Source: Ignavibacteriota bacterium (GTDB taxonomy: Bacteria > Bacteroidota > Ignavibacteria > Tepidaquicellales > Tepidaquicellaceae). From it: DNA of 64,000 nucleotides. Position 1 is the first letter of the stretch; each line of letters starts with the position of its first letter. The position numbers and the translations under genes were made by a program. The stretch covers positions 1-64,000 of the forward strand of contig JACREY010000011.1 in NCBI GenBank assembly GCA_016218085.1, given 5' to 3'. This document shows positions 53,885 through 60,523 of this stretch, piece by piece. The notes beneath the pieces were generated by a model, which saw nothing but the letters and a program-made list of their open reading frames with translations, searched no databases and was not told where the DNA came from.

Positions 53885-54580
53885 TTATCTCACCTGACTT
53901 TTCAGGTTTTCCATCAAAAACACTGTATCAGAAATTAAATTTCGTTTTACCCATTCTTTTTTTTCAGGTGTCAGAAGTTCGCCGATTCCTGCCAGAAGGT
54001 TGCGGCTTGATTTATCTTTAACAATCTTAATACACTTTCCAATAAATTCTTTTGTTTTAAGACCAGTTCTTGTTTTTATAATATCTTCGTTAAAGCCCCA
54101 ATTGCATTTCAGAAAATAATTCACATCAAAAATATCACGCGCGGATTTTCCTTTTCTCTCATAAAGAGCAACGAGCTTATGTGCAAACATATCTTCCTTA
54201 ACCATTACGTTTAAGCTTAACCCGAGAAAATTTTTTAATTCATATTTGGAATTAAAATTTCTTGTACTTATTTCAACTTTTATATTCTGAGTTTCTTCCG
54301 CATAGGAAACCATATAAAAAATAGTGTTTTTCTTTTTGTGGTTTTCTTTAAGCGCTCCATAATTTTTTAATATTTTTTCCAGCAAGCCGAAAACTATCTC
54401 CGCTTTTTCCTGATTCAATAAATCCAGGTCAATATCAACAGAAAACCTGCCAAGCCCGTAGAGCAAGTATGCCGCCGTACCGCCTTTAAAACCAAGTATT
54501 GGGGAAATTTCGGGATTTGTATAAATATCTTTTAAAATTCTGACTATGTAGTTTCTATGTATATCAATTTCTTTTAACAT
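53885..54580 (-). CDS. abiEii: AbiEii-type nucleotidyltransferase toxin
   Basis: 231 aa. LGFKGGTAAYLLYGLGRFSVDIDLDLL carries the nucleotidyltransferase GG-T...DxDhDh motif (key parts: KGGTAAYLL and SVDIDLDLL); VKVE-like IKVEISTR and MFAHKLVALYERKGKSARDIFD complete the AbiEii/DUF1814 fold. Such toxins add nucleotides to tRNA or similar targets and cause phage abortive infection. It overlaps the antitoxin gene by 17 nt. Somewhat shorter than the classical AbiEii (about 300 aa), but length varies. Confidence 0.9.
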   Translation of the reverse strand: MLKEIDIHRNYIVRILKDIYTNPEISPILGFKGGTAAYLLYGLGRFSVDIDLDLLNQEKAEIVFGLLEKILKNYGALKENHKKKNTIFYMVSYAEETQNIKVEISTRNFNSKYELKNFLGLSLNVMVKEDMFAHKLVALYERKGKSARDIFDVNYFLKCNWGFNEDIIKTRTGLKTKEFIGKCIKIVKDKSSRNLLAGIGELLTPEKKEWVKRNLISDTVFLMENLKSQVR

Positions 54581-55148
54581 AATTAATTGTTTTATAAAGT
54601 TTTTTTATTTCTCTTTCTAATCTTATTTTTTTATAAATTTGAGACAGGCTGAAAACCTTTTCCCAGTTTAACGGATTCAGGTTGTCAAAGTAATAATCTT
54701 TATTGAGATATATGGTGTCGAGGAATGCTCTTTCAGGTGAAGCAACGGAATATTTCGAGACATTAATTCCCAGCGGGTTATTCAGTATTTCGTTTTTAAT
54801 TTTTTTATAATTATAAAACTGCCCGTCAACCATCAATTCTCTGGAAGTGTACGAGATTAAAAAAACACTGTCGAATTTTTGAAAAATTATACCGCTGTCG
54901 AATAAAACAGTTTCAAGGCTAATGTAGGAGGGTCTCAGAATCCGATTTGCAAGTTCATATTTGTTATAATTATTGTGCGTTGCATAAAGACCATTTCTTA
55001 AACTGATTAGCTCTCCCTTTTTCACATAATAATTGATTTTTACTCTTGCGTTATTGAGATTGGTCTCATTCCACAAGATGCAAATATCGGCGAAAGAAAA
55101 TACTGTTTTCTCTGTTCTAATTAATGCAGATATTGGGTTATACTTCAT
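54564..55148 (-). CDS. abiEi: AbiEi-type antitoxin (transcriptional regulator)
   Basis: 194 aa from the ATG at 55146-55148; an ATG at 55160 (four more residues) lies in the middle of the inverted repeat. N-terminal winged-helix (FSFADICILWNETNLNNARVKINYYVKKGELISLRNGLYA, in pieces FSFADICILW and KGELISLRNGLYA) and the AbiEi C-terminal domain (SPERAFLDTIYL). Type IV antitoxin: it opposes AbiEii without binding it directly and represses its own promoter through inverted repeats. Confidence 0.88.
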   Translation of the reverse strand: MKYNPISALIRTEKTVFSFADICILWNETNLNNARVKINYYVKKGELISLRNGLYATHNNYNKYELANRILRPSYISLETVLFDSGIIFQKFDSVFLISYTSRELMVDGQFYNYKKIKNEILNNPLGINVSKYSVASPERAFLDTIYLNKDYYFDNLNPLNWEKVFSLSQIYKKIRLEREIKKLYKTINYVKRN

Positions 55149-55219
55149 ATTATTAACCATACATTAGTAAATAACTAATGTATAGTTAATAATATAGTAA
55201 TTTGTAATTATTGTTTCAA
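55147..55219 (-). promoter_or_regulatory. abiE promoter with a 49-bp inverted-repeat operator
   Basis: Arms of 21 bp (55147-55167 and 55175-55195) are perfect complements except at one pair; the spacer is 7 bp. On the minus strand TTGAAA (complement at 55214-55219) is followed 17 bp later by TATATT (55191-55196), so the operator covers the -10 element up to the start codon region. AbiEi of Streptococcus represses via two 23-bp inverted repeats, a good match. Confidence 0.75.
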
Positions 55220-55229
55220 GTAATTATTA

Positions 55230-57773
55230 TTAAAATCCAACTTTCATATTAAAGAAAATATTTCTTTCGGCTGCGGGAATCCAGTTGGGAGTGCCCGTCC
55301 AGTCAACTCCGCCTGTTGTTTCGTATAGCCTGTCAAAAATATTGTTCACCTTCAGAGAGGCTTCGAGTGTACGGAAATATTTGCTTAAATTTTTTGAGCC
55401 AATAAGCGGAACAATATCCAGCGATACACCTGCATTGAAAACAGTATAGGGATTTATAATTTTATCCACATAGCCGGCAACCTGCGTGGCGGCAGGATTT
55501 TTTCTTTCGTTTTCGGAGTTATCGAGGTACTGCTTTCCGATATATTGCATAGTAAAGTATGCGCCGAGTCCGAAATCCGAATTGAAGTTAAGAGAAAGAT
55601 TTCCGATGATTTGCGGATTCAATAAAATTTTATTTCCCGAATAATCATTTCCGTAAATAATTTTTCCTGCTGAGTCCACTCCGTTGATTTCTGTGTATTC
55701 CCTGAAATAATTATCCGTGAGCGCAAGGTTTCCGTTTAAAGTAAGTATGGGATTTTTATACCTGATGCCGCTGTAAATCTGGGCAATTAAATCATATTCA
55801 AACTCAAATTCTATTCCGCGGTGAACGGACTTGCCCGCATTGCCGTTGATGGGCTGTCCTACATTATCGAGCTGTCCGTTGTTTACGATTTCATTTGTAA
55901 AGTTCATCCAGTAGAAATTCAGATTTGCCTTGAGCAGGTTTGTGCTGTATCCGAAGCCGAGCTCGAAGTTTGTCATTTCTTCCGGCTTGATAAGCGGGTC
56001 GGAATAAGTGCCGCTTAGCGTATCCACAACCCTGAAGTTCGGGCGCGAGTAAGGGCTTTCGGCATCATAAATATCTTTCAGACGCGGTTCGCGGCGCGCC
56101 ATAGATACATTTGCAAACACGCGGAAGTCATTATTGATATTATAATTCAGTCCGAGGCGGGGAGTGAAGAAATTATAATCAACGTCGAACTTATACGGCT
56201 TGTTCGCATCGTTATCTATAGAATACCTGTGGAATGCAAACTGCAGACCGAGCATTGCCGTGAAGTTTTTATTGAAACTGTATATTTCGTTTACATAAAG
56301 AGACGCGGTTTTTTTCTTTCCCTCATAGTAGTAATACCTGTAATTAGCCAGAGTATTGGGAGGAAGCACGCTTCCGAAAGAAACCTCACCGTAATGCTCG
56401 GAGCTGTGAATGCGAAGTTCGCCGCCGATAAGAAGATTTCCTTTATCACCTGAGTGCTTCCATTGCACCTTCGGATACCATCCGTAGTCGTTGTTGTTAA
56501 CGAAAAGATTCACAACCATGTCGCTCCTTCCGACTTCATATCCCTTCCCTGGTACAAAAACAATCGTGCCGTCGGGATTCCGGTTGAAATACGCGGGATT
56601 AAACGAAGCGGAATCGTGAGTATAAAAATTCGGCAGGCGGAAATAAGAAAAATCCGCTCCATAAGAAATCGGATAATTTGTAATAAAATATCCTTCACCG
56701 CGCATATAGCTGAGCGTATTCGATATAAAAAGATTTTTTGTCGCCTGAAGATTATAGACCAGCTCGTAATGCGGCTGGTTGTAATTGTCGGTTTCGTTTG
56801 GGTATTCGAGAGGATTGTAACGCCTGTCTTTGCGCGCATCGCCCGAGATTTTTCCGTCGAGATAATCTTTTGAAACTCCGTAATATGCAAGATGATTTTT
56901 TATCGGCGAGCCGTAGAAATTCATTTTAATTACGGAATTTGCTCCGAGCATTTTTCCTGCGCTTAAAAAATAGGACCAGTGGTCCGACCATGATAAATTC
57001 CTGTAGCCGTCCGATTTTGTCTTTGAAAATTTTCCGTAGAAACCAAAACCGTTATCGAGCAATCCGGACGAGTATTCCATTGAATATCTTCTTGAATTAT
57101 AATCCCCTGTTCCTGCATTCAGGTTTATGAATTTATTTTTAAAATAATCCAGAGTCTGTATATTAATCACTCCGCCTATGCTGGATGTGCCGTAAAGCGC
57201 CGTGCCTATTCCGCGCTGAAGCTGTATGCTCTCTACCGAAGAACCGATATCCGATAAATCCACCCAATACACCTGATGGTCTTCGGCATCGTTTTGCGGA
57301 GTTCCGTTTATAAGGATTGCTATTCTTTTCTGGTCGAATCCGCGTATCGAAAAATAAGAGTACCCGATTGATGCTCCCGATTCCGAATATGCGTTAATGT
57401 TCGTGCTGCCGTTTATGAACATCGGCAAATCCTGCATCCAGTAACGCCTTTCTATTGTTTCCCTTTTTATGTTTTCGAATGTAATAGGCGTAAGCCTTTC
57501 CACTCCCCTGAGGGCATCCACCTCTATGGTGTTCGTTTCGTATTTGATAGTGTCTTTATCCTGAGAATTTGCATATCCGGTAAATAGTAAAATGCCCGCC
57601 ACGGCGGGTGCAAAGAGCGCATAAATAGTAAATAGTAAAACGTGAATCGTGAATCGTGAATCGTGAACAGAAAAGCGCGAACTTTTTTTTCCTTCTGACT
57701 CCTGACTTCTGACTCCTGACTTCTTTCCTGTTTTCTTTGCTTTAAGAAAAGCAGTTTTAATTAATGTTCCCAT
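55230..57773 (-). CDS. TonB-dependent outer-membrane receptor under TPP riboswitch control (thiamin-related uptake)
   Basis: 847 aa from the ATG at 57771-57773. The ATG at 57830 lies in the riboswitch terminator and is rejected. The plug domain spans about residues 100-210 (WMQDLPMFINGSTNINAYSESG, in pieces; RGFDQKRIAILINGTPQND; GGVINIQT) and the beta-barrel runs to the terminal ERNIFFNMKVGF with its final Phe. Residues about 17-64 are encoded by repeat units (57582-57724) and include the apparent signal-peptide core VLLFTIYALFAPAVAGILLF. Bacteroides OMthi, behind a TPP riboswitch, is the precedent for thiamin import; here the cargo is inferred. Tandem paralogue at 58005-60455. Confidence 0.93.
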   Translation of the reverse strand: MGTLIKTAFLKAKKTGKKSGVRSQESEGKKSSRFSVHDSRFTIHVLLFTIYALFAPAVAGILLFTGYANSQDKDTIKYETNTIEVDALRGVERLTPITFENIKRETIERRYWMQDLPMFINGSTNINAYSESGASIGYSYFSIRGFDQKRIAILINGTPQNDAEDHQVYWVDLSDIGSSVESIQLQRGIGTALYGTSSIGGVINIQTLDYFKNKFINLNAGTGDYNSRRYSMEYSSGLLDNGFGFYGKFSKTKSDGYRNLSWSDHWSYFLSAGKMLGANSVIKMNFYGSPIKNHLAYYGVSKDYLDGKISGDARKDRRYNPLEYPNETDNYNQPHYELVYNLQATKNLFISNTLSYMRGEGYFITNYPISYGADFSYFRLPNFYTHDSASFNPAYFNRNPDGTIVFVPGKGYEVGRSDMVVNLFVNNNDYGWYPKVQWKHSGDKGNLLIGGELRIHSSEHYGEVSFGSVLPPNTLANYRYYYYEGKKKTASLYVNEIYSFNKNFTAMLGLQFAFHRYSIDNDANKPYKFDVDYNFFTPRLGLNYNINNDFRVFANVSMARREPRLKDIYDAESPYSRPNFRVVDTLSGTYSDPLIKPEEMTNFELGFGYSTNLLKANLNFYWMNFTNEIVNNGQLDNVGQPINGNAGKSVHRGIEFEFEYDLIAQIYSGIRYKNPILTLNGNLALTDNYFREYTEINGVDSAGKIIYGNDYSGNKILLNPQIIGNLSLNFNSDFGLGAYFTMQYIGKQYLDNSENERKNPAATQVAGYVDKIINPYTVFNAGVSLDIVPLIGSKNLSKYFRTLEASLKVNNIFDRLYETTGGVDWTGTPNWIPAAERNIFFNMKVGF
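57582..57724. repeat. Composite short-repeat island inside the receptor's N-terminal codons
   Basis: In plus-strand order: AAATAGT (57582-57588); CCCGCC-AC-GGCGGG hairpin (57595-57608); AGAGC (57614-57618); AAATAGT twice (57623-57636); GTGAATC three times plus GTGAACA (57642-57669); GACTCCT and GACTTCT alternating, four units (57697-57724). The same modules occur in intergenic islands of the window. All are in frame, so the reading frame survives. Confidence 0.88.
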
Positions 57774-57779
57774 GATTAA

Positions 57780-57847
57780 AATTAATAAAAATAAAAAACG
57801 CCTAAACTTTTCCCGAACCTGATAAAACAAGGAAAAATTTAAGCGTT
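57780..57847 (-). terminator. Riboswitch-controlled terminator hairpin
   Basis: On the minus-strand RNA, AACGCTTAAATTTTTCC (57847-57831) pairs with GGAAAAGTTTAGGCGTT (57813-57797) with 15 of 17 pairs matched, followed by a T-rich run (TTTTTTATTTTTATT). The loop holds ATCAGGTTC (57815-57823), the exact complement of the aptamer core GAACCTGAT. Confidence 0.85.
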
Positions 57848-57857
57848 GAAAATAATT

Positions 57858-57945
57858 TGTAGTTTCCTACGGCGGCATTACCCGCATCAGGTTCTATGGG
57901 TCTTGTCTCAGCCTTTCCCGGAACGGGGAAAAGCACCCCAATACA
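57858..57945 (-). ncRNA. TPP (THI-box) riboswitch
   Basis: Minus-strand RNA carries, in order, GGGGTGC (57934-57940), a GC hairpin, GGCTGAGA (57906-57913), ACCC, GAACCTGAT (57886-57894), GCGGGTAATGCCGCCGTAGG + AAAC (about 57863-57885). These are the conserved segments of the THI box. The expression platform is the terminator about 11 nt downstream; the anti-terminator can form between GAACCTGAT and the terminator loop. In the bound state the terminator should form and switch the receptor off. Confidence 0.95.
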
Positions 57946-57968
57946 GCTATTATGCAAAAAGAACTAAA

Positions 57969-58004: not shown

Positions 58005-60455
58005 TTAAAATCCTACTCTCATATTAAAAAACAAATTCCTATCTGCAGCCGGAATCCATAACGGAACACCGTTTGCGCTCATCCCGCCAGTGCTTTCATA
58101 CAGCACGTCAAAAATGTTGTTAATCCTGAAAGAAACCTCGAGCGTCCTGAAAAACCTTCCGAGCCTGTCCGATTTGAAGAGCGGAATCAAATCCAGCGAA
58201 ATCCCTGCATTGAAGACCGTATGAGCATTAATAATCTTGTCAACATAACCGGGTGCGTTTCTTCGCTCCGGGTTTTTCCTCTCGTTTTCCGAATTGTCCA
58301 GGTATTGCTTCCCTATGTACTGCATTGCAATATATCCGCTTAATCCGATTTCCGAGTTGTAATTAAAAAGGAGATTCCCGATTATCTGCGGATTCAGCAG
58401 AATTTGGTTTCCTGAATAGTCGTTTCCGTAAATGTTTCCAAGCGAATCGATATAATTTTTTTCAAGATATGTGATAAAATAATTATCTGTCAGACTCAGG
58501 TTTCCGCTTAAAGTTATTTCGGGATTGCGTCCCGCCTTTCCGTTCTGAAATTTTCCTCCCATGTTGTATTCAAATTCAATCTCTATTCCCTGATGAACGG
58601 ATTTCCCCGCATTCCAGGTCATCGGCTGCCCGAAAATATCCAGCTGACCGTTGCTTACAATTTCATTCGTGTAATCCATCCTGTAGAAATTCAGGTTGGC
58701 CCTCAGCAGGCTTCCGCCGTATCCGAAACCAAGCTCATAATCATTCATCTCCTCATAAGTTACAAGCGGGTCCCTGTAAATTCTGTTTACTGTATCTATA
58801 GTTTTGAAATTTGGTTTCGCAGTCAGGCTTGTTCCGTCGTATAAATCGCTCAGCCTCGGCTCCCGCCTTGCAATGGATGCGTTCACAAAAGCCCGGAAGT
58901 ATTCATTGAAATTATAATTAAATCCAACCCTCGATGTCAGAAACTTGTAATCAACATCGAAATTGTAAGGTGTGTATGCCGAATTGTCAACTGAATACTT
59001 GTGATATGTGAACTGTATCCCGAACATGCCTGAAAGCTTTTTTGCCATGTTCGTGAATTCATTCAGATAAATCGAATAAGTGTTTTTATTTCCTTTGTAA
59101 AAATAATATTTGTAATCATCCGGCGTACCGGGCGGAAGCGCATTTGCAAAATCAATCTCCCCGCAGTTTTCCGAACGGTGCAGACGGAACTCGCCGCCAA
59201 TCAGCAGATTCCCGATATCCCCTGTGTGTCTTATGTGTACCTTCGGAAACCAGCCATAGTCGTTGCTTTTCGTGTTCAGTTTTGCAACCAGATCTGTGCG
59301 AGCAACCGTGTAACCTAATCCAAGTATTGTGTCTATTCTTCCCCTCTGATTGCGCAGGTAATAATTTATATTATAAGTGAAAGTGTCCCTTGCGTAAAAA
59401 TACGGAAGTCTGAAATGATGTAAATCATATCCCGCACTTATCGGATAGTTTGTCGTGAAAAATCCATCCCGTCTGATGTAATTAAATGTATTAGAAATGA
59501 AAACTGTTTTCGCCGCCTGAAGGTTGTAAACAAGTTCATAATGCGGCTGGAAAAAATCCGAAACTTCATTTATGTATTCAATCGGGTTGTACCGCCTGTC
59601 TGTGCGGATATCTCCGGTCACCTGTCCGTCGAGATATCTTTTTGTTATGCCCTTATATGCTGTGTGATTCTTCACGGGGGATCCGTAAATGTTCAGCTTT
59701 ATAACGGAACTTTCCCCCAGAATTTTTCCCGCACTAAGAAAATACGACCAGTGATCTGACCACGAAAGGTTTCTGTACCCGTCCGTCTTTGTCTTCGAAA
59801 ATTTTCCGTAAAATCCGAATCCGCCCTGCGTGAGACCAGACGAGTATTCTGCGGAAAACCTTTTCGAATTATATGCGCCGTAACCCGCATTAAGATTTAT
59901 GAATTTATTTTTGAAATAATCTATCGTTTGCAGGTTTACAACACCGCCGATTCCGGACGTGCCAAAAAGCGCCGTGCTTATCCCCCTCTGAATCTGTATG
60001 TTCTCTATGGATGAGGTAATGTCCGAAAGCTCTACCCAGTTCACCTGGTGGTCCATCGGGTCGTTCTGCGGCGTGCCGTTAAGCAGGATTGAAAGCCGCC
60101 TCTGGTCAAAACCGCGTATAGTAAAATATGAATAACCGACCGAAGCACCTGATTCTGAATAAGCGTAAATGTTAGTGCTCCCGCTCAGGAACATCGGTAA
60201 ATCCTGCATCCAGTAACGCTTTTCAATTGCTTCCTTCTTTACCGTCTCAAGAACAATCGGTACAACTTTTTCTATCCCCTTGATAGCATCCACCTCAATT
60301 GTAGGAGTCCTGTATGTGTTTGTATCTTCTGCTTCCTGTGCATCCGCTCTTATTGAAAACCCAAAGTTAAAAAGAAAAAAAACTGAAATCAGCAGTAAAA
60401 CTTTAAACTTCAAACCGCCGGCGGCCGGCCGCACCGCCTTTCTGTATGTTTTCAT
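58005..60455 (-). CDS. TonB-dependent outer-membrane receptor, paralogue of the thiamin-linked receptor
   Basis: 816 aa. Signal peptide core LLLISVFFLFNFGFSI with a GC-rich, repeat-like stretch before it (RPAAGG, coded by CGGCCGGCCGCCGGCGG). Plug domain with SGSTNIYAYSESGASVGYSYF and RGFDQRRLSILLNGTPQND, then a barrel ending AADRNLFFNMRVGF. Very similar along the full length to the 55230-57773 receptor, so the two arose by tandem duplication. It has no riboswitch in front; the aptamer lies after its stop codon and serves only the downstream copy. Its ligand may differ or its expression be constitutive. Confidence 0.93.
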   Translation of the reverse strand: MKTYRKAVRPAAGGLKFKVLLLISVFFLFNFGFSIRADAQEAEDTNTYRTPTIEVDAIKGIEKVVPIVLETVKKEAIEKRYWMQDLPMFLSGSTNIYAYSESGASVGYSYFTIRGFDQRRLSILLNGTPQNDPMDHQVNWVELSDITSSIENIQIQRGISTALFGTSGIGGVVNLQTIDYFKNKFINLNAGYGAYNSKRFSAEYSSGLTQGGFGFYGKFSKTKTDGYRNLSWSDHWSYFLSAGKILGESSVIKLNIYGSPVKNHTAYKGITKRYLDGQVTGDIRTDRRYNPIEYINEVSDFFQPHYELVYNLQAAKTVFISNTFNYIRRDGFFTTNYPISAGYDLHHFRLPYFYARDTFTYNINYYLRNQRGRIDTILGLGYTVARTDLVAKLNTKSNDYGWFPKVHIRHTGDIGNLLIGGEFRLHRSENCGEIDFANALPPGTPDDYKYYFYKGNKNTYSIYLNEFTNMAKKLSGMFGIQFTYHKYSVDNSAYTPYNFDVDYKFLTSRVGFNYNFNEYFRAFVNASIARREPRLSDLYDGTSLTAKPNFKTIDTVNRIYRDPLVTYEEMNDYELGFGYGGSLLRANLNFYRMDYTNEIVSNGQLDIFGQPMTWNAGKSVHQGIEIEFEYNMGGKFQNGKAGRNPEITLSGNLSLTDNYFITYLEKNYIDSLGNIYGNDYSGNQILLNPQIIGNLLFNYNSEIGLSGYIAMQYIGKQYLDNSENERKNPERRNAPGYVDKIINAHTVFNAGISLDLIPLFKSDRLGRFFRTLEVSFRINNIFDVLYESTGGMSANGVPLWIPAADRNLFFNMRVGF

Positions 60456-60474
60456 TTTACTATAAATTGAATTA

Positions 60475-60498
60475 CCGCAACAGATTAATCTGTTGCGG
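60475..60498. repeat. Perfect 24-bp palindrome between receptor and membrane-protein genes
   Basis: CCGCAACAGATT-AATCTGTTGCGG, self-complementary. Followed by TTTTTG on the plus strand, so it looks like a terminator for plus-strand transcription although the genes on both sides are on the minus strand; no T-run on the minus side. It lies in the likely promoter region of the 58005-60455 receptor and could be an operator or a dispersed palindrome. Confidence 0.6.
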
Positions 60499-60523
60499 TT
60501 TTTGTTTAAAATCCGGATATAAG

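Follow-up and report, generated by a model that had tools for sequence, protein, structure and literature searches.

The question raised by this locus was how a TonB-dependent receptor gene with a TPP riboswitch ahead of it is controlled, and what the receptor carries. The receptor (copy A, 55230-57773, minus strand) lies in the window, which is the whole 64-kb stretch of DNA that was analysed. The reading we favour, with a probability of about 0.8, is a TPP-off riboswitch that attenuates transcription at the outer-membrane step of thiamin uptake. Receptor transcription would very probably be stopped when enough vitamin B1 is present.

Aptamer and terminator ahead of the receptor

The earlier note had read a THI-box core in front of this receptor, and a search with the Rfam model bore this out. 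RF00059 matched 57846-57950 (minus strand) with 70.6 bits against a gathering score of 54.3 (cmscan, E 7e-12 for the 64-kb window), and the match ran over the full length of the model (positions 1-105 of 105). It was the sole TPP riboswitch found in the window's own genome (3.3 Mb, 98% complete). The motifs GGCTGAGA (57913-57906) and GGGTAATGCC (57883-57874) stand on either side of the core GAACCTGAT (57894-57886) on the minus strand, and the Rfam structure line assigns the core to J2/4, the 5' strand of P4 and J4/5. The box TTAGTTCTTT (57958-57967, minus strand) is located 18 nt upstream of GGGGTGC. A GTTCTTT-type box recurs 12-21 nt upstream of the aptamer in most family members, and this recurrence suggests a promoter role.

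An intrinsic terminator, consisting of a 17-pair stem and a U-tract, sits between the aptamer and the start codon. The arms AACGCTTAAATTTTTCC (57847-57831) and GGAAAAGTTTAGGCGTT (57813-57797) pair at 17 of 17 positions on the minus strand, with a predicted hairpin energy of -20.6 kcal/mol, and the U-tract TTTTTTATTTTT occupies 57787-57798 on the same strand. The previous count of 15 paired positions out of 17 with a T-run was correct for Watson-Crick pairs, and the remaining two are G-U pairs. ATG 57773 is the first in-frame ATG and follows the U-tract at 20 nt; in most relatives, the first ATG is found 12-23 nt beyond it. Therefore, the longer ORF from 57830 was rejected as an artefact of reading across the terminator, and the receptor start at 57773, as suggested before, is supported.

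The leaders of 26 genomes of one Ignavibacteria family were aligned. Two-sided changes were found in 11 of the 17 terminator pairs; none of 500 shuffles reached a covariation as high, and slid controls were far lower. The whole leader structure also scored above all 500 shuffles and the slid controls.

Predicted pairing between the aptamer core and the terminator loop

The loop segment ATCAGGTTC (57823-57815, minus strand) is the exact 9-nt reverse complement of GAACCTGAT, as the earlier note had stated. An exact complement of the core arose by chance in 22 of 100,000 shuffles of the platform. The segment lies wholly within the terminator loop, adjoins the 3' arm at 57813 and shares no stem bases. 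Across the alignment, GGTTC directly before the 3' arm was invariant (26/26), and the rest of the loop varied in both sequence and length. The complementarity between core and loop exceeded that of shuffled loops at p<0.05 in 24 of the 26 genomes. It reached 7-10 nt in most genomes, extending beyond GGTTC as in TTCAGGTTC for GAACCTGAA and TATCAGGTTC for GAACCTGATA. The core is fixed and five of the nine pairs never vary, so the core-loop helix yields no covariation evidence and the argument rests on the conservation of the partner. In one aptamer subclade (L033, L040, L043, L044, L047, L050, L051 and L053), GAACCTGCT and CGAAGG replace GAACCTGAT and CGTAGG; the two changes, around J4/5 and P4, occur as a pair. 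The core-loop helix is down to about 5-7 pairs in this subclade, which counts against the favoured reading.

Because GAACCTGAT holds J2/4, the 5' strand of P4 and J4/5, pairing with the loop would destroy the TPP site. When transcripts were cut at GGTTC, the core-loop helix was predicted with a probability of at least 0.76 in 25 of the 26 genomes, and P4 was lost or minor. For the window leader, the minimum-energy fold was this helix once the growing transcript had reached about 142-150 nt, and the terminator did not appear before about 154 nt. P4 gives way to the helix in the predicted folds, thereby excluding the ligand-bound aptamer. At full length, the terminator fold (-53.3 kcal/mol) was about 8 kcal/mol better than the antiterminator fold (-45.7 kcal/mol) at nearly equal length, in a folding program that cannot treat the helix and the terminator together; this also counts against the favoured reading.

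These results divide the antiterminator proposed in the earlier note into two parts. The competition between the core-loop pairing and the aptamer stands, but there is no strand exchange, since the complement uses no bases of the terminator stem. With the complement in the loop and not in the stem, an antiterminator must act kinetically or topologically. Furthermore, because no stem bases are shared and the terminator fold is better at full length, read-through would depend on kinetics.

In the mechanism that we propose, transcription would begin just upstream of the aptamer. Without TPP, the loop AUCAGGUUC would pair with the aptamer core GAACCUGAU as soon as it is out of the polymerase, P4 would be destroyed, and a closed loop of about 60 nt would hold the 5' arm of the terminator. 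The helix would delay the terminator by keeping the 5' arm closed in this loop while the polymerase holds the 3' end. The terminator would then form too late to keep the polymerase from continuing into the receptor gene. When TPP is bound, the core would be locked in the aptamer and the loop would be free, so that the 17-pair terminator could form and end transcription ahead of the ATG. The aptamer, the terminator, the conserved complement, the predicted folding order, the target gene and the auxotrophic setting are established by sequence and comparison, whereas TPP binding, termination in the cell, and a kinetic or topological block are inferred. That the whole family uses an unusual antiterminator, in which a core complement in the terminator loop blocks the terminator topologically and without strand exchange, is a tentative suggestion. 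A loop-directed antiterminator may be an unusual variant, and no survey was found that shows a lack of precedent.

Two extensions of the helix were considered and dropped. A longer antiterminator, in which CTTTTCCC of P3 also pairs with GGGAAAAG of the 3' arm, can be drawn for the window and, in part, for G001, the second species of the genus; it was not adopted because it is missing from the other genomes. An extra pair between the base before GAACC and the base after GGTTC is not conserved among the leaders, as judged by eye.

Thiamin metabolism and the two receptor copies

A TPP element was found in 113 of 119 related genomes. Within the window's own Ignavibacteria family, it precedes the same TonB-dependent receptor wherever the downstream sequence suffices. 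In several other families of the class, a TPP element is also located ahead of the receptor, with different leaders. Outside the own family, CAGGTTC was present in the leader of G064 only, and it was absent from the leader of G055, a second member of the G064 family. The sister family f2, which belongs to the same order, has ThiC, and its TPP element precedes thiC. At locus L059 of G031 (minus strand), the thiC leader seemingly contains two near-identical tandem terminators just 3' of the aptamer.

No match to ThiC, ThiE or PnuC/PnuT was found in the window's own genome. Among the 18 family genomes searched, ThiC and ThiE were missing in 17 and PnuT in all 18. The only genome with ThiC and ThiE (G015) has neither the TPP element nor this receptor. 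On contig C12 of the own genome, a thiamin pyrophosphokinase gene and, 6 nt downstream, an SSF sodium:solute symporter gene together occupy L183 7929-9977. These two genes are adjacent in nearly all of the 18 genomes, and they lie near each other in each family genome in which both were detected. The symporter is the probable inner-membrane partner of receptor A, and the family members look like thiamin scavengers, a setting in which a TPP-dependent shut-off of the receptor makes sense. Judged from the sequences compared, the switch design is common to a whole family that mostly lacks thiamin synthesis.

Copy A contains the plug and beta-barrel domains (PF07715 and PF00593), and its start at ATG 57773 is backed by relatives. 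It is led by a TPP riboswitch in a genome with thiamin salvage, as expected of an OMthi-type receptor, and this genome context makes thiamin its likely cargo. Some homologues in Chitinophagaceae and other Bacteroidetes, 28-30% identical, are also TPP-led. Most Flavobacterium homologues (about 28% identity) had no TPP element upstream in a pattern search, and they were not used as evidence.

Two arrays of heptamer repeats, of the ATTCACG and GTCAGGA/GTCAGAA types, were observed at 57641-57667 and 57692-57724 (minus strand) in the N-terminal coding region of the receptor, before and in the signal peptide. At the same site, the sister species G001 has the heptamer TTCAGAA, and G026 has another repeat type. 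Directly 3' of the receptor, an AbiEii-like nucleotidyltransferase and an overlapping upstream gene (53885-55160, minus strand) form a probable type IV toxin-antitoxin pair; the TPP loci retrieved from other family members gave no match to this pair.

The paralogous TonB-dependent receptor (copy B, 58005-60455, minus strand) was identified by Pfam and is 61% identical to copy A. The earlier note had described it as lacking an aptamer, and the searches agree. Within the window, no TPP element upstream of copy B reached the gathering score, and a relaxed search returned only other families at chance level, including weak sRNA matches. A perfect 11-pair inverted repeat (60474-60499), located 18 nt upstream of the copy B ATG, was rejected as an attenuator because its T-run is on the plus strand, opposite to the gene.

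Two receptor copies at the set threshold were found in the window's genome only, among the 18 family genomes searched. In G001, a copy is flanked by the same DUF4153 gene on one side and by the TPP element on the other; a downstream copy is not visible because the contig stops 271 nt past the element. In the tree, copy A branches first, and copy B groups with the G001 copy and a stray copy (L083) with 100/100 support. Based on this tree, the duplication dates to the genus level, with copy A keeping the ancestral switch. The stray copy is a B-like receptor (L083 6001-8514) on a separate contig of genome JAQTLX, whose TPP-led copy is placed elsewhere in the tree; it may reflect transfer or mis-binning. 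The path from the A/B fork is 0.18 changes per column to copy A and 0.59 to copy B, so by branch length B diverged about 3-fold further. The previous statement that duplication gave one regulated and one unregulated copy is thus true of the aptamer, but copy B may not carry thiamin. It possibly has another substrate, and the same function should not be assumed.

Alternative readings and known systems

The core-loop pairing could coexist with the terminator as a pseudoknot that blocks nothing, with the leader serving as a constant attenuator or with regulation at another level, such as translation or RNA stability. Loop-linear pseudoknots of 7-9 pairs are sterically possible, and the complement is confined to the loop at 0-2 nt from the 3' arm. 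However, an invariant complement of the TPP-binding core, kept next to the 3' arm in 26 genomes, is not something that a constant attenuator would require, and the helix precedes the terminator in the predicted folding order. We regard this reading as unlikely. The OMthi transcript of B. thetaiotaomicron, which gave no significant response to thiamin (PMC5613172), speaks for it and against the favoured reading, since it implies that control by a TPP switch in front of such a receptor is not necessarily transcriptional. GGTTC could also owe its conservation to something else, such as contact of the loop with a protein or NusA, with a secondary match to the core. The invariance of five of the nine pairs, which leaves the pairing without covariation proof, agrees with this. 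It is nevertheless very doubtful, since the complement extends past GGTTC in most genomes, and the families of the class with other platforms have no GGTTC-type complement, bar one genome.

The switch could also operate as described while receptor A carries a thiamin precursor, thiamin phosphates or a similar cargo. A sequence search of the PDB with copy A returned no homologue, and an NCBIfam search returned only general receptor matches below the cut-off, both of which leave room for another cargo. However, a thiamin pyrophosphokinase is retained beside the symporter, and precursors alone would not help a genome without ThiC and ThiE, which makes such a cargo rather improbable. For the TPP-off switch that we favour, we infer thiamin as the substrate.

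The arrangement of a TPP riboswitch with a TonB-dependent receptor is already known, and the OMthi precedent named in the earlier note is supported. Such riboswitches were predicted in Bacteroidetes and genetically tested in B. thetaiotaomicron (PMC5613172), where OMthi (BT2390; Rodionov 2002 as cited in PMC5613172), a TonB-dependent receptor with an implied role in thiamin uptake, is likewise immediately preceded by a TPP riboswitch. Bacteroides combines this arrangement with PnuT and keeps biosynthesis, whereas PnuT, ThiC and ThiE are absent here and an intrinsic terminator is part of the leader. The TPP riboswitch, the receptor, a sodium-solute symporter and thiamin pyrophosphokinase form one locus in Caldithrix abyssi (Cabys_3975-3977; PMC5317091). 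Here the same components are divided between the window, which has the receptor, and contig C12, where the kinase and symporter are neighbours.

Antiterminators have also been described for transcriptional TPP switches (PMC7237195). In Neisseria thiC (PMC7237195) and in Bacillus tenA as modelled (PMC3280964), TPP favours the terminator, as proposed here, and the antiterminator formed without TPP uses aptamer sequence. The same order of folding windows was described for the tenA switch as kinetic control (PMC3280964). The Neisseria antiterminator blocks the 5' branch of the terminator, whereas in the present leader it is the terminator loop that serves as partner, with the J2/4-P4-J4/5 core on the aptamer side.

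The level at which TPP riboswitches act in Bacteroidetes has been called uncertain (PMC5613172), and a 2019 preprint, going by its title as cited in PMC7366714, has Bacteroides TPP riboswitches acting on transcription or translation. Given this uncertainty, it helps to have a related lineage in which the terminator design is clear. One TPP-controlled terminator is available here in 26 natural versions whose blocking helix contacts the loop only, and these would show cleanly whether shared stem bases are required for antitermination. Furthermore, an Ignavibacteria family represented here mostly by metagenome assemblies gains a well-supported thiamin-scavenging system together with its regulator.
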